Source: Nitrospira sp.
GTDB taxonomy: Bacteria; Nitrospirota; Nitrospiria; Nitrospirales; Nitrospiraceae
Assembly: GCA_019636815.1 (NCBI GenBank)
Contig: JAHBWT010000044.1
Span: forward strand, 1-33,862
Reading direction: 5' to 3'
Length of the DNA stretch: 33,862 nucleotides
Shown here: positions 7,878 through 27,109 of the stretch, in pieces
Layout of the letters: every line of letters begins with the position of its first letter
How positions within the stretch are numbered: the first letter of the stretch is position 1
The notes under the pieces: generated by a model
Told to the model about the DNA's origin: nothing
Seen by the model: only the letters and a program-made list of their open reading frames with translations
The model's database searches: none
Translations under genes and position numbers: made by a program

Positions 7878-8150
7878 ATGCCAAGAGTAGCCGTTAAAAA
7901 TAATCGTCGGATGTCCTTACGAATCCACTCAGCGGATAAGGCACTGTTGCTGCGTGCGGTTGCCTACGCCCATACCGACCTCACTGATTTTGTAGTACGG
8001 AACGCCCTCCAAGCCGCAAAAGCGGTGATTGCCCAGGCTGAACGGGTTTCCCTATCCGAGCGGGATAGCCTGCGCGTATTAGATGTCCTAGAAAATCCCC
8101 CACCGCCGAACGCAAAGCTACTGGCGGCAGCCCGTGCCTTACCTAGATGA
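7878..8150 (+). CDS. TacA-type DUF1778 antitoxin (ribbon-helix-helix)
   Basis: A 90-residue DUF1778-family antitoxin. The N-terminal half carries the ribbon-helix-helix DNA-binding fold (RMSLRIHSADKALLLRAVAY, then THTDLTDFVVRNAL-like helices). The C-terminal part contains the toxin-wrapping segment ending SLSERDSLRVLDVLENPPPP, a family hallmark. It neutralises the acetyltransferase encoded next and should repress the operon. Its ATG follows AAGGGAGAG at good spacing. Its stop overlaps the toxin start (ATGA), so translation is probably coupled and antitoxin is made first. An inverted repeat upstream is a likely operator. Confidence in the family is high; the DNA site is inferred. Confidence 0.9.
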   Translation: MPRVAVKNNRRMSLRIHSADKALLLRAVAYAHTDLTDFVVRNALQAAKAVIAQAERVSLSERDSLRVLDVLENPPPPNAKLLAAARALPR

Positions 8151-8674
8151 CCGTTCCTCCATGGCACGAAGAGCCGATTGCGAAACAGCATAATCGGGAG
8201 GCGTTTGATTGCGGCGACGCAGCCCTCAATGATTTTCTGCGACGTCATGCCCGTCAAACGCATGAGGGGGGCGGGGCGAAAATCTTTCTCGCGGTAAGGG
8301 ATGATGACGCGACTCTGGTGCTAGGTTTCTACTGCCTCAGTCCTGCCTCGATAGAATTTTCCCGCGCACCTGATGTGGTGAAGCGTGGACTGGCGCGGCA
8401 TGATGTTCCCGTGTTCCGCCTCGGTCGGCTGGCTGTCGCCCAATCCATGCAAAGGAATGGGCTGGGAGGCCAATTGCTTCTAGCTGCTGGTCGTCGGTGT
8501 CTTCGTGCCTCTCAGGAAGTCGGCGGCGTGGCCTTGCTGATTGATGCCAAGAATGAAGGCGTCGCACAGTGGTATGCCAGCTATGGCGCATTGCCCCTTC
8601 TGGACACGCCTCTCTCCCTGCTTCTGCCTCTGGCAACCATCCAAAAGGTCTTAGAAGCTGCCAACAAACTATAG
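8147..8674 (+). CDS. TacT-type GNAT acetyltransferase toxin
   Basis: A 175-residue GNAT-fold toxin paired with a DUF1778 antitoxin. Characterised relatives (TacT, AtaT, ItaT) acetylate the amino group of charged tRNAs and halt translation. The acetyl-CoA pyrophosphate loop is Q-R-N-G-L-G-G at 102-108, preceded by the strand RLGRLAV (91-97). The tyrosine in the C-terminal WYASYG motif (Tyr143) corresponds to the catalytic position in TacT. The N-terminus has the typical FDCGDAALNDFL segment seen in this toxin group. The length is normal and no key residue is missing, so the toxin looks active. It overlaps the antitoxin by four bases. Which tRNA it targets cannot be read from sequence. A perfect hairpin follows the stop. 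Confidence 0.9.
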   Translation: MTVPPWHEEPIAKQHNREAFDCGDAALNDFLRRHARQTHEGGGAKIFLAVRDDDATLVLGFYCLSPASIEFSRAPDVVKRGLARHDVPVFRLGRLAVAQSMQRNGLGGQLLLAAGRRCLRASQEVGGVALLIDAKNEGVAQWYASYGALPLLDTPLSLLLPLATIQKVLEAANKL

Positions 8675-20699: not shown

Positions 20700-21179
20700 A
20701 TGAGTGAATCTCAGACCATCACGACATTCTATGAAAAAGACCACGACCGCCTGGACGACTTGTTTAAGACCTTTCAAACAATGAAGCGGTCGGACTTTCC
20801 CAAGGCGAAGGAAGCATTCAAGGACTTTAAGACCGGCCTGCAGCGCCATATCGTGTGGGAAGAGGAGCTGCTGTTTCCGATGTGGGAAGAGAAAACCGGG
20901 ATGGTCGAGGACGGGCCGACGCCCATGATGCGATTTGAACATGACCAAATCAAGCAACTGCTTGACGCCATTCACCAAAAGGTGGAGGCCCAGAATCTCG
21001 ATACCGACCAGGACGAGCAGGCGCTGTCAAACCTCTTGAGTTCTCACAATAGGAAGGAAGAACGGGCGCTGTATCCCGCAATCGATAACGTCATCAGCCC
21101 GGACGAGTGCGCCAGAGTCTTCAGCGACATGAAAACTATTCCGGAGGACCGGTCCAATGCCTGTTGCAGTGAGCATTGA
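20700..21179 (+). CDS. Hemerythrin-domain (HHE) protein
   Basis: A 159-residue four-helix hemerythrin-like protein that would bind a non-heme di-iron centre. Candidate ligands are all present: His15 (KDHDRL), His50 and Glu54 (HIVWEEELLFP), His81 (EHDQIK), His116 and Glu120 (SHNRKEERALYP). This is the single-domain HHE type. Possible roles are O2 or NO sensing, oxygen storage, or iron-sulfur repair as in YtfE/RIC. Cys155-Cys156 near the C-terminus (SNACCSEH) is unusual. AAGGA precedes the ATG at seven bases. The next gene, a c-type cytochrome, begins inside or just after its 3' end, so both are probably on one transcript and may act in the same oxygen or electron-transfer process. Confidence 0.88.
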   Translation: MSESQTITTFYEKDHDRLDDLFKTFQTMKRSDFPKAKEAFKDFKTGLQRHIVWEEELLFPMWEEKTGMVEDGPTPMMRFEHDQIKQLLDAIHQKVEAQNLDTDQDEQALSNLLSSHNRKEERALYPAIDNVISPDECARVFSDMKTIPEDRSNACCSEH

Positions 21180-21210
21180 CAGTGATCGAATAAAAAGGGG
21201 AGGCGGCGTG

Positions 21211-21723
21211 GTGGAACAAGCTGCGAGTGAGAGTGGGCAGAGATCTCTATCTTTGCTCTTTGCTCGCAACCTCCATCTCTTGGCCCCAGTGATGGTCTCG
21301 CTCAGCCTGCTCTTCACGAGTAGCCTGGGAATGGAGCTGCTGTCGCCGTCGCTCTCCGCATGGGCTGAATCCCCCACCGCACAACCGACCGGAAAACTAA
21401 AAGGTAATATCATGCGGGGCCGGGAGATTTTCAACGGGAAAGGTGTCTGTTACTACTGTCATGGCATCGATGGGTATATCGGGAAAAGACCTCGATTGGA
21501 AGCGGACACCGCTACACTCATCGCGAAACTGAATCCTCCCCCGACCGATTTGCGGAACCCCGAGGTTCAGCGCCTGAAGACCAATAAGGAACGTGCCCGT
21601 GCCATTCGGGAAGGCCATCCCGGCACCGGTATGTTTCCCGACACCACCATGACCGATCAGGACCTCGCCGATACGTTGCTCTACCTCGCGCTCATCAGAA
21701 GGGACCCTCATCCGGAGCAGTAG
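21211..21723 (+). CDS. Monoheme c-type cytochrome, periplasmic
   Basis: A class I-like cytochrome c with one heme site CYYCH and an axial Met most likely in the TGMFPDTTMTDQDLADTLLYL region. An N-terminal hydrophobic signal (LLAPVMVSLSLLFTSSLG, cleavage near AWA-ESP) sends it to the periplasm. Start choice: GTG 21211 or GTG 21208, both after GGGGAGG. The frame also opens at ATG 21157 with GGAGG nine bases upstream, which would overlap the hemerythrin gene by 23 bases but leave a long charged region before the signal. I prefer 21211. It probably carries electrons between complexes; the partner is not encoded here. It forms a likely operon with the hemerythrin gene. Confidence 0.85.
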   Translation: MEQAASESGQRSLSLLFARNLHLLAPVMVSLSLLFTSSLGMELLSPSLSAWAESPTAQPTGKLKGNIMRGREIFNGKGVCYYCHGIDGYIGKRPRLEADTATLIAKLNPPPTDLRNPEVQRLKTNKERARAIREGHPGTGMFPDTTMTDQDLADTLLYLALIRRDPHPEQ

Positions 21724-21766
21724 GATCGGGAGTTGGCGTAAGAAGCCTCGTCTTTGGTTGGAGCAC

Positions 21767-21829
21767 ATGGTGGGTAAAACAACAACTCGCTACGATGTTG
21801 CCGCGCATCTTCGCACCCAAGCGGCTTAG
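21767..21829 (+). pseudogene. N-terminal remnant of an addiction-module antidote protein
   Basis: Twenty codons and a stop, reading MVGKTTTRYDVAAHLRTQAA. The TTTRYDVAxHLRT part is the usual N-terminus of HigA-like 'probable addiction module antidote' proteins, which continue with EEDMAAYL-type residues and an HTH. Here a stop follows at once and no HTH is found downstream. It is a short match, so the call is tentative. Confidence 0.35.
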
Positions 21830-21849
21830 TACCTTTTCGATTTTTAGCG

Positions 21850-22068
21850 ATGCGGAAGTGCTATGACTTCTCCAAGATGAAAAAGCGTAAGAACCCGTAC
21901 GCCAAATATTTGAAACAGCCGGTCACGATGCGGTTGGATCGTGATACGGTCGCCTATTTCAAGTCCATCGCTGAAGAAATGGGAATCCCATATCAAAGCT
22001 TGATCAATCTCTACCTTCGCGACTGCGCCATGCATCACCGCAAGTTACACATAAAGTGGGCATCGTAG
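21850..22068 (+). CDS. CopG/BrnA-like antitoxin without a visible toxin
   Basis: A 72-residue DNA-binding antitoxin-like protein. The N-terminus MRKCYDFSKMKKRKNPYAKY is characteristic of this group. A ribbon-helix-helix part follows (QPVTMRLDRDTVAYFKSIAE, then MGIPYQSLINLYLRDC), ending HRKLHIKW. In complete systems a small RelE-like or BrnT-like toxin gene lies next to it. None is found on either side: upstream is an antidote-protein scrap and the cytochrome gene, downstream an eroded XRE gene. It is therefore an orphan. No good ribosome site precedes the ATG, so expression is doubtful, but the frame is intact and its N-terminus matches the family. It may persist as an 'anti-addiction' protein or be passing out of use. 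Confidence 0.7.
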   Translation: MRKCYDFSKMKKRKNPYAKYLKQPVTMRLDRDTVAYFKSIAEEMGIPYQSLINLYLRDCAMHHRKLHIKWAS

Positions 22069-22108
22069 ATCTCTGAGGAAACAATTTAGGGCATCCGTGA
22101 ATACGAAC

Positions 22109-22246
22109 ATGACCAAATCAAGCGGCAATGCTTTTTATTGATATCGGCTTTGATCAGGATGAAGCAGTGGTGTTCCAGATGCGCGCCAGTCTCATGAGTG
22201 ACCTTCGGCTCTACATTGAAAAACAGGTTGGAAACGCTCAGAGTGA
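22109..22246 (+). pseudogene. Broken XRE-family (HigA2-like) regulator, 5' part only
   Basis: Reading from ATG 22109 gives MTKSSGNAF and then stops. Removing one T from the T-run at 22132-22136 gives IDIGFDQDEAVVFQMRASLM, SDLRLYIEKQ. Adding one base near 22226 continues GWKRSE to a TGA at 22244. This is the N-terminal part of the XRE antitoxins that read 'NVF.DLGF..EEA..L.MRA.LM..LR..I...GWTQ.EAA'. The HTH part that should follow is missing. Two indels and a truncation make a sequencing error unlikely to explain all of it. Confidence 0.5.
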
Positions 22247-22288: not shown

Positions 22289-23343
22289 ATGGCTTGTATC
22301 TATCCAGGCCCACACAGCTCGATGTCTGAGGAGCATTACTTGCCAGCTGCTCTCGGAAGGTTCAAGGGGTATGAGCCGCTACTGGATAGACTTTGTCGCG
22401 ATTGCAATAAACAAATAGGTAACACGTGTGAAGAGCCCTTTCTCCGAGCTGGACCTATTGCATTTTTAGATGGTTGGTTGGAAACGAAGGCAGAGATGGT
22501 CCTCCACCATCTCCTTTTTACCGAGGAGCAGGTGGTGCACGATCGCTTTATATGACAGGTCGTCTGGACGGTTTTGACTTTGACGTACTGTTTGAGGTCA
22601 AACCAGGCACTGAAGACGTATACCCTCTCCGCCAAGTCGTCTTCGACCATCCGATCGCGGGCCGCCAACCTGTTCCGATTTTGGACCGGATGAAAGACAA
22701 TCCCACTGCTCTTAGTGAGTATCTAAGAGAGCAGGGCATTGAGGGTGCTAAGCCTGTCCACGTATTCGCAACACCTGATGAAATCCCGTGGTTGACCAAT
22801 CTGCTACTCAGTGCGGTGGGAACCACACCAGGTGGAAAATGGCAAACATTAGACGTTCATGCCCAGCGCATCGGCCTTGTGGTCCGAGCAGGTGTCAACG
22901 AAACCCACTTCCGGGCGGTTGCCAAGATTGCGTTCCACTACGCACTCAAGGTGCTCCCAGACCTGACGGGCTTTGAACCTGAATTTAATGCAATTAAGCA
23001 GTTCATCTGGGAAGGCGGGCATTCAAACCGCTTCGTTCACAAGCAGGGTGAACAATTTGTCCTTAACTTCCGCCAAGGCTATAGGCCATCCTGTTGGTCA
23101 CACATTCTGGCAGTAACCTGCAACTACAACGAAATCGTAGGATATACTCAATTCTTTGCAGGTCCGAGATCGCTACCACTGCCATATAGGATCAGGATTG
23201 GATCAAACCCTTCCAGGATTATTAGCCGAACCATACAGCATGCACATCAGTTCATAATTCTTCCTCAAACCGAAAAATCAGGTTACATCGGTGTGATGGA
23301 AGATCTCCAGACTGCCAACTATGTGTCAGTTGGAATCAGATAA
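22289..23343 (+). pseudogene. HNH-endonuclease-like protein split by a one-base frameshift
   Basis: Two overlapping frames make one protein. The first (22289-22555) begins with an HNH-like zinc-finger segment: Cys3, the SEEHYLPAALG motif with the catalytic-type His, and LCRDCNKQIG, the second Cys pair. After AGPIAF it leaves the gene's frame and ends at 22555. The second frame, usable from about 22474 to 23343, continues WLVGNEGRDG and then about 270 residues with no domain I recognise (FEVKPGTEDVYPLRQVVFDH, then ADHPQ-like segments to YVSVGIR). Adding one T to the T5 run at 22463-22467 joins them into about 350 residues. The first Cys pair of the HNH zinc site is imperfect (CIYPGPH). The region is AT-richer than its neighbours, suggesting transfer. 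Restriction or phage-defence use is possible but unproven. Confidence 0.65.
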
Positions 23344-23411: not shown

Positions 23412-23630
23412 TTACATGGTGTGTCGTGGTGATTCGATTCGTATTCTCGCATCCACGATCCGGCAGCCTTGGCCGGGTGGGAGGGAAAAAATCGGATTCA
23501 AGTCGAGTTCGCTGATCTCGGAAAGCGCTTCGGCAAGCTGAGCGATACGGAGCAAGACATCTCCAGCTGCCTTCAGATCGGCGGTCGGTTGATCACGGCC
23601 GCCATTGCAACAACGCGAACTTTCGCCTGC
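23412..23630 (-). pseudogene. Decayed C-terminal fragment of a second ADP-forming acyl-CoA ligase
   Basis: The minus frame contains LLRIAQLAEALSEISELDLN, PIFSLPPGQGCRIVDARIR, matching the last residues of the intact ligase gene at 24377-27109. Forty-four bases (from 23440 and from 24393) are identical in the two copies. Further into the gene the similarity falls but stays homologous (GGRDQPTADL against GYRGHPPADL), so this is a diverged paralogue or orthologue. A further shift near 23610 separates a KFALLQ piece. Nothing of the rest of the protein remains. The HigB-HigA pair lies between the two tails. Confidence 0.65.
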
Positions 23631-23642
23631 CATTGACCACTA

Positions 23643-23671
23643 TTGAGGCCTATTACGGGTGCCGTTATAAT
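23643..23671 (+). promoter_or_regulatory. Promoter of the higBA operon
   Basis: TTGAGG (23643-23648), a 17-base spacer and a perfect TATAAT (23666-23671). Transcription would begin about seven bases later, at or next to the GTG at 23679 that starts the toxin. The mRNA would then be leaderless or nearly so. Confidence 0.55.
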
Positions 23672-23678
23672 GGAGCCC

Positions 23679-23972
23679 GTGATACGCTCGTTCGGGAATC
23701 GAGGCACCGAGGAAATATTTGACGGCGTCGATTCCGAAATAGTCAGAAAAACATGTCCCCGAAATCTGTGGAAGGTTGCCAGAAGGAAACTGGATCAGAT
23801 TAATCGCGTGAAAGATCTTACTGAGCTCGCTGTGCCGCCAGGAAATCGCCTCGAACGGTTGCGGGCGGACCGGAGCGGACAGCACAGCATTAGGATCAAC
23901 GATCAATACAGGGTCTGTTTTCGATGGGAGGCTGGAGATGTCTACGAGGTTGAGATCACGGATTATCACTAA
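23679..23972 (+). CDS. higB: HigB-type toxin (RelE superfamily)
   Basis: A 97-residue ribosome-dependent mRNA interferase of the HigB/RelE group. Family landmarks: GTG IRSFGNRGTEEIFDG at the N-terminus, the central LWKVARRKLDQINRVKDLTE, LAVPPGNRLERL, and the C-terminal QHSIRINDQYRVCFRW, then EVEITDYH. The start is decided by the promoter: an upstream in-frame ATG at 23670 lies inside the -10 box, whereas GTG 23679 gives the usual MIRSF start and the usual length. The gene precedes its antitoxin, which is the normal order for hig systems. Its stop is eight bases before the antitoxin's likely GTG. All conserved residues seem present, so the toxin is probably active and kept in check by the neighbouring HigA. 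Confidence 0.9.
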   Translation: MIRSFGNRGTEEIFDGVDSEIVRKTCPRNLWKVARRKLDQINRVKDLTELAVPPGNRLERLRADRSGQHSIRINDQYRVCFRWEAGDVYEVEITDYH

Positions 23973-23979
23973 GAGACCG

Positions 23980-24330
23980 GTGACCACTGATTTGCAGAGC
24001 CGCTCGCAAGATCTTGTTGCACGCCGGCTGCCTTGTCGGCGGCCACCTACCCGTCCGGGCGAAATGTTGCTGGAGGAGTTCGTCAAGCCGCTGGGCATAA
24101 CCCAATCGGAGTTGGCGGTCCGCCTGGGCATCTCGTTCCCCCGGCTCAATGAAATCATCCGGGGCAAGCGTTCGATCACGTCAGATACCGCGCTCCGGCT
24201 GGCGCGTGTCCTAGGGATGTCTGCTGACTTCTGGCTGGGGCTACAGGTGGACTGGGATCTCTGGCACGCTATGCACGGCTCGAAGGCCAGCGAAATCCAC
24301 CGTCTTGAGCCCCTTCGCCCTTCAGCCTGA
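23980..24330 (+). CDS. higA: HigA-type antitoxin (XRE helix-turn-helix)
   Basis: A 116-residue antitoxin of the HigA family. The core begins RPPTRPGEMLLEEFVKPLGI, then the helix-turn-helix TQSELAVRLGISFPRLNEII, then RGKRSITSDTALRLARVLGM and SADFWLGLQVDWDLWHA. These are the classic HigA segments. A 25-residue N-terminal extension (QSRSQDLVARRLPCRR) precedes the usual start. The frame is open back to ATG 23938, which would overlap higB by 35 bases; I prefer GTG 23980, which lies just after the higB stop. It should bind HigB and repress the operon promoter at 23643-23671. The 3' end lies 46 bases from the convergent stop of the acyl-CoA ligase gene. Confidence 0.88.
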   Translation: MTTDLQSRSQDLVARRLPCRRPPTRPGEMLLEEFVKPLGITQSELAVRLGISFPRLNEIIRGKRSITSDTALRLARVLGMSADFWLGLQVDWDLWHAMHGSKASEIHRLEPLRPSA

Positions 24331-24376: not shown

Positions 24377-27109
24377 CTACCCTAATCCAACCCGTATTCT
24401 CGCATCCACGATCCGGCAGCCTTGGCCGGGTGGGAGCGCGAAGATCGGATTCAAATCGAGTTCGCTGATCTCTGGAATTTCTTCAACGAGACGAGATACT
24501 CGCAGCAACGTTTCTTCCAAGGCATCAAGATCGGCCGGTGGGTGCCCGCGATAGCCGGTGAGCAAACGATAGCCTTTGATTCCGCGGACCATCTCTGCGG
24601 CGTCACGGTCGGTGAGTGGCGTGATGCGGAACTGAACATCTCCAAGGATCTCGACATGAATTCCACCAAGTCCAAAAGCCATCAGAGGGCCGAAGAGGGG
24701 ATCATCCGCGACTCCGATCATGACCTCCACGCCGCCGGTGAGCATCGGCTGCACGAGCACGCCTTCCATGGCGTCGAGCTGATTGGTCTCGGCGAGTCGC
24801 GTTCTCACCGAGTCAAACGCTTTGCGAACCGCCTCTTCGTTCGTGAGATTCAATTGCACGCCGCCGATCTCAGTTTTGTGCACAATCTGATGTGAAGCCA
24901 GTTTGACGGCGACCGGATAACCGACTTGCCTTGCCACGGCCGCTGCTTCATCGGCGGTTCCAGCCACTCCTCCTGGCTGAACAGGAAGTCGGAGCGCACT
25001 CATGACATTTCGTGTCTCTTCCACCGACAACCAGCCCGCACCGCGACGCGAGAGAACGTCGGTACAGATTTTCTTAACGGCTGGAAGATTCAGATCATCG
25101 AAGTCGGGAACCATGCCAGCCGGCTGTTGCCGCCACTCTGCGTAAGTCGCCGCTTTGCCGAGCACGAGCGCGGGGGTCTCCGGCAAATGGTAGGCGGGAA
25201 TGGTTTCTGTTTGGGAATTAAACGTACGGTCCATGTCACCCTCCGCCATCCAGCCAATGAGCACAGGCTTGGCCTTCGCCCCAGCCTTTCGCCCATTCTC
25301 AATTCCAGCCATGATGCCACGGGCGATCTCTGGCGTATCTGTCACGGTCACAGCCATATAGAGGATGATCAGCGCATCGATCTCACCAGCCAAGAGGAGA
25401 GTTTCAATCCCCTTGGCGTACTGATCCGGTGTGGCAGAAGCAATCAAATCGACGGGGTTGCTTAGCGCGGCGGCCAAGGGGAGAAAGGATGAGAGCGTTG
25501 CCCTGGTTCGGGCAGACAATTCCGGAACAACCAACTCGCTTTCCTCGCAGGCGTCAGTACAAAGAACGGCAGGCCCTCCCGCGTTCGTGATGATGCCCAC
25601 TCGCCGACCCAGCGGGAGGGGTTGATTTGATAGGCCAGAAGCCAGGGCCAATAAGTCTTCGAGCGATTCCGCGCGAATGACGCCGGCTTGATGAAATAAG
25701 GCATCGATGGCAACATCGCTGGCTGCAAGCGCCGCTGTGTGAGAACTTGCCGCACGCCGCCCCGATTGTGAGCGTCCAGCTTTGACCGCAATGATCGGTT
25801 TGCGACGGCTCACGCGCCGGGCGATGCGGGCGAATTTTCGAGGATTGCCGAAGGACTCCACGTAAAGGAGGACGACATTCGTGGAAGGGTCTTCTTCCCA
25901 ATATTGCAACAGATCGTTGGTGGACACATCGGCCTTGTTTCCCACACTCACAAAGGAAGAGATGCCCAAGTGAAATCGCCGCGCGCCGGCAAGAGTCGCA
26001 ATCCCGATGGCGCCGCTTTGCGACGACATGGCGGCACGGCCCCGAGGGGGAAACAGCGTGGTGAAGGTGGCATTCAGCTGTACGTCGCGGTCCGTGTTCA
26101 AGATTCCGAAGCAATTGGGCCCGATCATGCGCATGCCGTATTGCCGGATCTTTTTGGCCAGCTGGCTCTGGAGCTCCGTTCCTTCGGCTCCCACTTCCGC
26201 AAAGCCTGCCGTAATGACCACCAACGCCCGGACACCTTTGTCCGCACAATCATCGACGACGGACAACACGTGCTGTCGGGGCACAGCGATGATGGCGAGA
26301 TCCACTGATCCGGGAATCGTGCGTACTGAGGAATGGACAGGAACTCCGGCGATCTCTGAGGCATGTGGGTTGACCGGATAAATGGCACCACGAAACTGAT
26401 TGGTTCGGAGTGCATCGAAAAGTCGATAGCCGATGCTCTTTGGATCGCGCGATGCACCGACCATGGTCACGGATCGGGGGTGGAAAAACGGGCGGAGTGA
26501 AGCGGTTGTGGCGAGCCGTTCACGGACCTCGGCACGAGTGACGGTCGTTTCCGAGGGAATCAGCGACAACTCGACTTCCATCTCGTCGCCTCCGTAGGCT
26601 TCATGGGCCGTAAACCCCGATTCGCGGAATACTTCCCGCATGGCCAGATTGTCCGCATGAGTGACCGCCCATAGTCGGGTGAATCCATGCCGGATGGCCA
26701 GCAAGGCGAGCCGTTCAAGGAGCAGGGTTCCCAGACCTTTCCCATGAAACTCGTCGATCACGGCCATCGCCACCTCCGCGGTGTGCGCATCCCTCGCCCA
26801 GTAGGACCCCGCGGCAATAATGTGCAGTGCGTCTTCCCATGACCGCATGACGATCAACGTCAACTGCGAACGGGGGGCTGAAGAGTCGCACAATCCCGCG
26901 ATGAAATCGTCCGGCGGTCTACCTTCCGAGAAAAACCGGCGCCGCTTCGATTCCGGCGACAGACGGTCGACAAATTGCTGCATCAAAGCCGTGTCCGACG
27001 GTTCGGACAGACGAATCGCTGCGGTCGTGCCGTCGCGAAGAATCAGCGATCCAGAGTCGGCATGATCGGCTTTCCATGGCGGGGTGTAGAGCGGACGAAC
27101 CTGTTTCAT
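24377..27109 (-). CDS. GNAT / ADP-forming acetyl-CoA ligase fusion (Pat/AcdAB-like)
   Basis: A 910-residue fusion. Residues about 15-185 are a GNAT acetyltransferase (VAMAVIDEFHGKGLGTLLLE is the acetyl-CoA loop). Then come a CoA-binding Rossmann domain at about 205-330 (RSVTMVGASRDPKSIGYRLF), a succinyl-CoA-ligase-like domain (MIGPNCFGILNT; SSHTAALAASDVAIDALFHQ) and a C-terminal ATP-grasp part (from about 690: YPVAVKLASHQIVHKTEIGG, then EISELDLNPIF). Such proteins either make acetyl-CoA with ATP formation or act as protein lysine acetyltransferases (E. coli PatZ). PatZ has its GNAT domain at the C-terminus; here it is N-terminal. It ends the minus-strand stress operon, 115 bases after the universal-stress gene. 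A decayed duplicate of its 3' end lies beyond higBA. No strong ribosome site precedes the ATG. Confidence 0.88.
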   Translation of the reverse strand: MKQVRPLYTPPWKADHADSGSLILRDGTTAAIRLSEPSDTALMQQFVDRLSPESKRRRFFSEGRPPDDFIAGLCDSSAPRSQLTLIVMRSWEDALHIIAAGSYWARDAHTAEVAMAVIDEFHGKGLGTLLLERLALLAIRHGFTRLWAVTHADNLAMREVFRESGFTAHEAYGGDEMEVELSLIPSETTVTRAEVRERLATTASLRPFFHPRSVTMVGASRDPKSIGYRLFDALRTNQFRGAIYPVNPHASEIAGVPVHSSVRTIPGSVDLAIIAVPRQHVLSVVDDCADKGVRALVVITAGFAEVGAEGTELQSQLAKKIRQYGMRMIGPNCFGILNTDRDVQLNATFTTLFPPRGRAAMSSQSGAIGIATLAGARRFHLGISSFVSVGNKADVSTNDLLQYWEEDPSTNVVLLYVESFGNPRKFARIARRVSRRKPIIAVKAGRSQSGRRAASSHTAALAASDVAIDALFHQAGVIRAESLEDLLALASGLSNQPLPLGRRVGIITNAGGPAVLCTDACEESELVVPELSARTRATLSSFLPLAAALSNPVDLIASATPDQYAKGIETLLLAGEIDALIILYMAVTVTDTPEIARGIMAGIENGRKAGAKAKPVLIGWMAEGDMDRTFNSQTETIPAYHLPETPALVLGKAATYAEWRQQPAGMVPDFDDLNLPAVKKICTDVLSRRGAGWLSVEETRNVMSALRLPVQPGGVAGTADEAAAVARQVGYPVAVKLASHQIVHKTEIGGVQLNLTNEEAVRKAFDSVRTRLAETNQLDAMEGVLVQPMLTGGVEVMIGVADDPLFGPLMAFGLGGIHVEILGDVQFRITPLTDRDAAEMVRGIKGYRLLTGYRGHPPADLDALEETLLRVSRLVEEIPEISELDLNPIFALPPGQGCRIVDARIRVGLG

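Follow-up and report, generated by a model that had tools for sequence, protein, structure and literature searches.

The working of type II toxin-antitoxin (TA) modules implies that the toxin must die before the antitoxin. Inferences about TA decay and orphan antitoxins usually draw on scattered copies rather than on a single site such as the one described here. Orphan antitoxins are common in Klebsiella and E. coli, where antitoxins without toxins have been read both as degraded loci and as anti-addiction genes (PMC7192599, PMC10790755). The Nitrospira locus shares such lone antitoxins but differs in showing every stage at a single syntenic site throughout the genus, with a legible toxin-first order. 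In addition, the E. coli survey reports many orphan toxins (PMC10790755), whereas none was seen in 58 loci of the Nitrospira site. Pairs, orphan and broken antitoxins and empty sites occur together at one syntenic place, which makes the rule that the toxin dies first countable and opens the question of whether a lone antitoxin is debris or serves as an anti-addiction gene. TA-rich chromosomal integrons are also similar in their same-orientation TA pairs, rapid turnover and fixed place, but at the Nitrospira locus no integrase or attC was found, the attC scan being crude.

The window (the whole stretch of 33,862 nucleotides that was analysed) comes from a genome of 4.0 Mb in 143 contigs. We conclude that the stretch behind its c-type cytochrome gene very probably holds the leftovers of three type II TA modules, lying in a genus-wide hotspot where modules erode toxin-first (Table 1). 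The interval is placed between a hemerythrin/cytochrome pair, whose two genes adjoin in nearly all loci, and a block of acyl-CoA synthetase and universal-stress-protein (USP) genes. Genomes sharing the locus are Nitrospira or Nitrospirota metagenome-assembled genomes; the sole exception is one weak deltaproteobacterial match.

Table 1. Genes and remnants in the window's interval and at its borders
Feature	Position	Strand	Evidence and remarks
Hemerythrin-domain gene	20700..21179	+	PF01814 E 3.5e-16; conserved left flank
c-type cytochrome gene	21157..21723	+	PF00034; immediate left border; orthologues present in relatives
HI1420-type antidote remnant, first ~18 codons	21767..21829	+	DNA alignment to G119 and G041
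Predicted orphan BrnA antitoxin, intact, 72 aa	21850..22068	+	PF14384, 36 bits
HTH_37 XRE antitoxin remnant	22109..22246	+	Collinear DNA with intact XRE of G105 and G087
HNH_5-like ORF, first of two overlapping frames	22289..22555	+	PF14279, 23.9 bits, below cut-off of 27.5 (weak)
HNH-associated gene, second frame	22552..23343	+	No family matched
Acyl-CoA synthetase 3' end fragment	23440..23591	-	76% direct repeat of 24393-24544
HigB toxin, intact	23643..23972	+	PF05015, 54.9 bits
HigA antitoxin, intact	23938..24330	+	TIGR02607, 107.1 bits
GNAT/acyl-CoA synthetase gene (ADP-forming type), right border	24377..27109	-	PF13549, PF13607, PF13380, PF00583

The first piece behind the cytochrome gene is a 20-codon ORF (MVGKTTTRYDVAAHLRTQAA) that a sequence-only reading of this DNA had taken for the N-terminus of an antidote protein. 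On its own, the 20-aa piece matched no family among the Pfam and NCBIfam profiles, and neither did the XRE remnant; hence, homology of both fragments was tested via the intact copies of their neighbours. We found that window DNA at 21756-21824 can be aligned with genome G119, where the matching bases are the ribosome-binding region and first ~18 codons of an antidote gene that is intact (TIGR02684, E 2e-36, 123.9 bits; PF21716, E 8e-31); in G119 an intact TIGR02683 toxin and this antidote stand directly after the cytochrome gene. From the cytochrome stop on, 21724-21824 also aligns to G041, in which the antidote is truncated and the toxin is gone as well. A tblastn match at the syntenic position has E 0.002. 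The earlier claim is thus borne out by an intact homologue at this locus: 21767-21829 is the start of an HI1420-type addiction-module antidote, with its HI1419-type toxin absent. G119 and G087 both keep the RelE/ParE-like HI1419/HI1420 module (TIGR02683/TIGR02684) intact at this site, whereas the window retains ~18 codons of antidote and no toxin.

The second piece, described earlier as an intact CopG/BrnA-like antitoxin with no toxin, was confirmed as such. The ORF exceeds the cut-offs of both PF14384 (BrnA_antitoxin; cut-off 26.1) and PF12441 (CopG_antitoxin; 31.2 bits, cut-off 28), and stays below that of the NCBIfam equivalog NF047399 (21.9 vs 60). G105 is sister to the window genome in the hemerythrin tree (98% support), and its paired BrnA shares 93% identity with the ORF of the window. 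At the same place G105 carries BrnT (PF04365), BrnA and an intact HTH_37 XRE gene. BrnT lies directly upstream of BrnA in G105, G005, G158 and G170, whereas no BrnT was found in the window's interval, and the upstream space is too small for a toxin. Elsewhere in the window's own genome, the best BrnT reaches only 42% identity with the cognate toxin of G105. Across the 79 genomes searched, close BrnA homologues (at least 83% identical) are confined to this site. Compared with the BrnT-BrnA type II module of the sister genome, the window has an intact BrnA standing alone behind the cytochrome gene, its BrnT deleted.

The third piece had been read as an XRE antitoxin broken by two indels and truncated, which proved roughly right. 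We found that 21847-22222 and the G105 sequence run collinearly over BrnA, the intergenic bases and the first ~40 XRE codons, and that the alignment contains one single-base indel, a frameshift near 22131. The G105 gene is an intact XRE (PF13744, E 3.8e-19), and G087 has an intact copy at the same site. Homology is clear up to 22222, where a strict local alignment ends, and the middle of the gene is missing beyond; a looser alignment suggests a short 3' piece, a weak 17-base match at 22224-22240 whose score is reached by 2 of 300 shuffles and which is not significant against G105 alone and weakly significant against 13 relatives. Positions 22109-22222, perhaps to ~22240, therefore read as one clear indel plus an internal deletion rather than two indels, and represent what is left of an HTH_37 XRE antitoxin gene, assigned through its intact counterpart at the same locus. 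The last ~30 XRE codons persist behind differing TA modules in more than 12 loci (e.g. L064, L069, L085 and L099), as if this surviving 3' stretch were a right-end marker of the TA cargo.

The sequence-only reading had proposed a profile search of the three pieces and had stated that its claim would fall if the two fragments lacked a significant family match. Taken literally, that is what the search gave, with BrnA as the single match. The intact same-site homologues of both fragments, in contrast, match their families strongly (TIGR02684 in G119, PF13744 in G105), and the proposed comparison with relatives that keep intact pairs here bore out each of the three pieces (G119, G105 and G087). 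We give next to no credence to the idea that the fragments are non-coding DNA resembling TA genes by chance: neither matches a profile alone, and the antidote piece is as short as 20 codons, but the DNA of both is collinear with intact genes that relatives carry at this site, and these alignments refute it.

Of two intact TA pairs said earlier to lie nearby, one is in the interval. This HigBA pair (23643-24330) consists of a HigB-like toxin followed by HigA, each intact, and is the only module still complete in the window's interval; copies of HigB ~90% identical occur at the same site in G128, G165 and G102. The other, an intact pair of TacA1 (PF08681) antitoxin and GNAT-like toxin at 7878-8674 (GNAT match below the Pfam cut-off), lies 13 kb upstream and outside the interval.

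Two further elements share the interval. The HNH_5-like gene at 22289-23343 is split across two frames with a 4-base overlap, and G105 and G145 keep only 3' remnants of the second frame. A plasmid search with the HNH-associated protein gave no relatives, one with the DNA gave a single match of 49 bases at 80% (E 0.1), and an Rfam search of the window gave no match. Beyond HigBA, the 3' end of the acyl-CoA synthetase gene (24393-24544) is repeated at 76% at 23440-23591. Similar fragments recur within the interval in many relatives, and one directly precedes HigB in G108, G165 and G128 as in the window. In the four carriers, the fragments preceding HigB are at least as similar to one another as to their own acyl-CoA synthetase genes, most clearly in G000/G108. 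These similarities led us to reject a fresh target duplication from HigBA insertion as the origin of the fragment.

To place the window among its relatives, the same interval was taken from 57 of them, giving 58 loci with the window. The interval ranges from 69 bp (G062 and G093) to 7.8 kb with both borders seen (7.775 kb, G153), several lengths being lower bounds set by contig or stretch ends. Six kinds of type II TA module recur in it: HI1419/HI1420, BrnT/BrnA, BrnT2 with a BrnA-like antitoxin, two HigBA types and PF09720/ParE; XRE recurs besides these. With counts read by hand and a total of 79 x 3.55 Mb assumed for the genomes, 12 of 252 BrnT genes fall in the intervals (0.15 expected), as do 15 of 329 HigA genes (0.20 expected), densities ~80 and ~77 times those across the genomes of the genus. 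The presence and absence of seven modules requires 59 state changes on the hemerythrin tree, a count that does not separate gain from loss. Hence, TA turnover at the interval is fast. Across the genus Nitrospira, this interval is a hotspot for TA modules. Its richest array, with three TA pairs and an intact XRE, is that of G087 (L112), ~0.6-4.7 kb after the cytochrome gene, which holds HI1419-HI1420, an orphan C18 antitoxin, the intact XRE, an HI1420 fragment, BrnT2-C18 and HigB2-HigA2.

Across the 58 loci we counted 22 intact pairs and 22 intact antitoxins without an intact toxin (20 strictly; the toxin is absent in 15 and broken in 7, two of the latter, BrnT of G157 and ParE of G167, being judged solely by a lost start codon), and not a single intact toxin without an intact antitoxin. 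The loci are related, so the 22 are not independent; counted by eye, they represent ~16 distinct junctions. Remnants are similarly skewed, with 19 of antitoxin only vs 1 of toxin only, and one module with both halves broken. These counts fit the toxin-before-antitoxin rule. In PF09720-ParE, the sole module with the antitoxin gene first, the toxin is again the lost part. Hence, gene order is not the cause of toxin-first loss.

Individual loci retain intermediate stages. The last codons of a toxin remain just upstream of orphan antitoxins for HigB2 in G111, G146 and G165 and for BrnT2 in G096. One close clade forms a series from the BrnT-BrnA pair (G158) through orphan BrnA (G096 and G128) and broken BrnA (G136) to empty sites of 69 bp (G062 and G093). 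Short deletions, located either behind the cytochrome stop or between modules, account for the losses.

Modules at the site very probably erode through small deletions and frameshifts. Toxins very probably go first, presumably because loss of the antitoxin first would poison the cell with its own toxin, and the freed antitoxin would decay later, at leisure. The window's lineage has lost BrnT, the HI1419 toxin and all but the start of the antidote, which now lies beside the intact BrnA, and its XRE is frameshifted and lacks its middle. Repeated gain would occur by recombination between the conserved flanks.

Selection on the freed antitoxins bears on whether they are debris. For BrnA, paired copies give pairwise dN/dS values of 0.014-0.058 and orphan copies values of 0.06-0.15, with synonymous sites near saturation in many pairs and the date of toxin loss not fixed; HigA2 has a smaller paired-to-orphan shift than BrnA. 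For both orphan BrnA and HigA, dN/dS is low, tighter than pure neglect would leave if orphaning were old. Hence, given the saturated sites and undated toxin loss, dN/dS says only that the orphans are not yet free-drifting. Orphan BrnA appears still to be under purifying selection and may have a residual role. The stronger proposal, that it is kept for a job of its own, either anti-addiction against an incoming BrnT or service as a DNA-binding regulator expressed by read-through from the cytochrome gene, we consider unlikely. The intact BrnA ORF of four orphan genomes (G000, G096, G128 and G153) and dN/dS values far below 1 speak for such a job, and Klebsiella has orphan antitoxins that retain the ability to neutralise toxins (PMC7192599). 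However, constraint looks relaxed relative to paired BrnA, the low values may predate toxin loss, BrnA is broken or lost in the close relatives G136, G142, G141, G062 and G093, and the window's own genome has no cognate-like BrnT elsewhere.

Decay is well shown at this site and arrival is not. The sequence-only reading had pictured a spot of repeated TA arrival and loss; loss is directly visible in a high-turnover hotspot that spans the genus, whereas no gain was caught in the act in 58 loci, and we infer repeated arrival from the many modules scattered across the tree. Transposases (ISL3, IS21 and IS30-like) occur in few loci only. BrnA of G158 and G096 differs at 6 of 25 fourfold sites vs 3 of 56 in the adjacent hemerythrin gene, a contrast suggestive of cargo exchange through recombination between the conserved flanks.

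The site might instead hold mostly one ancestral TA array that decayed differentially, without repeated arrival, and we regard this as a serious contender while leaning somewhat against it. Module order is largely consistent (HI1419/20, BrnT2-C18, BrnT-BrnA, HigB2-HigA2, XRE), the confinement of close BrnA relatives to this site would follow, and BrnA and hemerythrin identities correlate (r 0.63). Against this stand the number of state changes on the flank tree, the fourfold-site contrast between G158 and G096, and Unst-ParE and HigBA1, which change nearly once per carrier. The shared module order nevertheless suggests that some of the diversity arose as an older array decayed differentially.

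Two more specialised readings concern how modules would be gained. A chromosomal-integron cassette array, or an integrase-less attC cluster, that shuffles TA cassettes is highly improbable: the TA pairs do follow one another head to tail in a single orientation and turn over fast, and full-length integron integrases occur in 8 of the 79 genomes of the genus, but all of these lie elsewhere and none at this locus, and a scan of 166 kb of intervals gave 0 attC-like core sites with complementary arms, though the scan was crude, had no positive control and gave 0 in shuffles too. With no integrase at the site and no attC in this crude scan, we rejected the integron reading. It is somewhat less improbable, yet still quite doubtful, that the interval is a dedicated TA-collecting site that gains modules by some integrase-free route and stocks leftover antitoxins as antidotes against incoming toxins. 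Compared with these two, repeated gain through the flanks followed by toxin-first erosion remains our preferred account.

Related genes also occur away from the hotspot. At a different site in G056 (L092, G056:C22:306000-320000), BrnT, BrnA and HigA lie close together, with a BrnA 69% identical to that of the window, and G132 (contig C41) carries a similar gene group.
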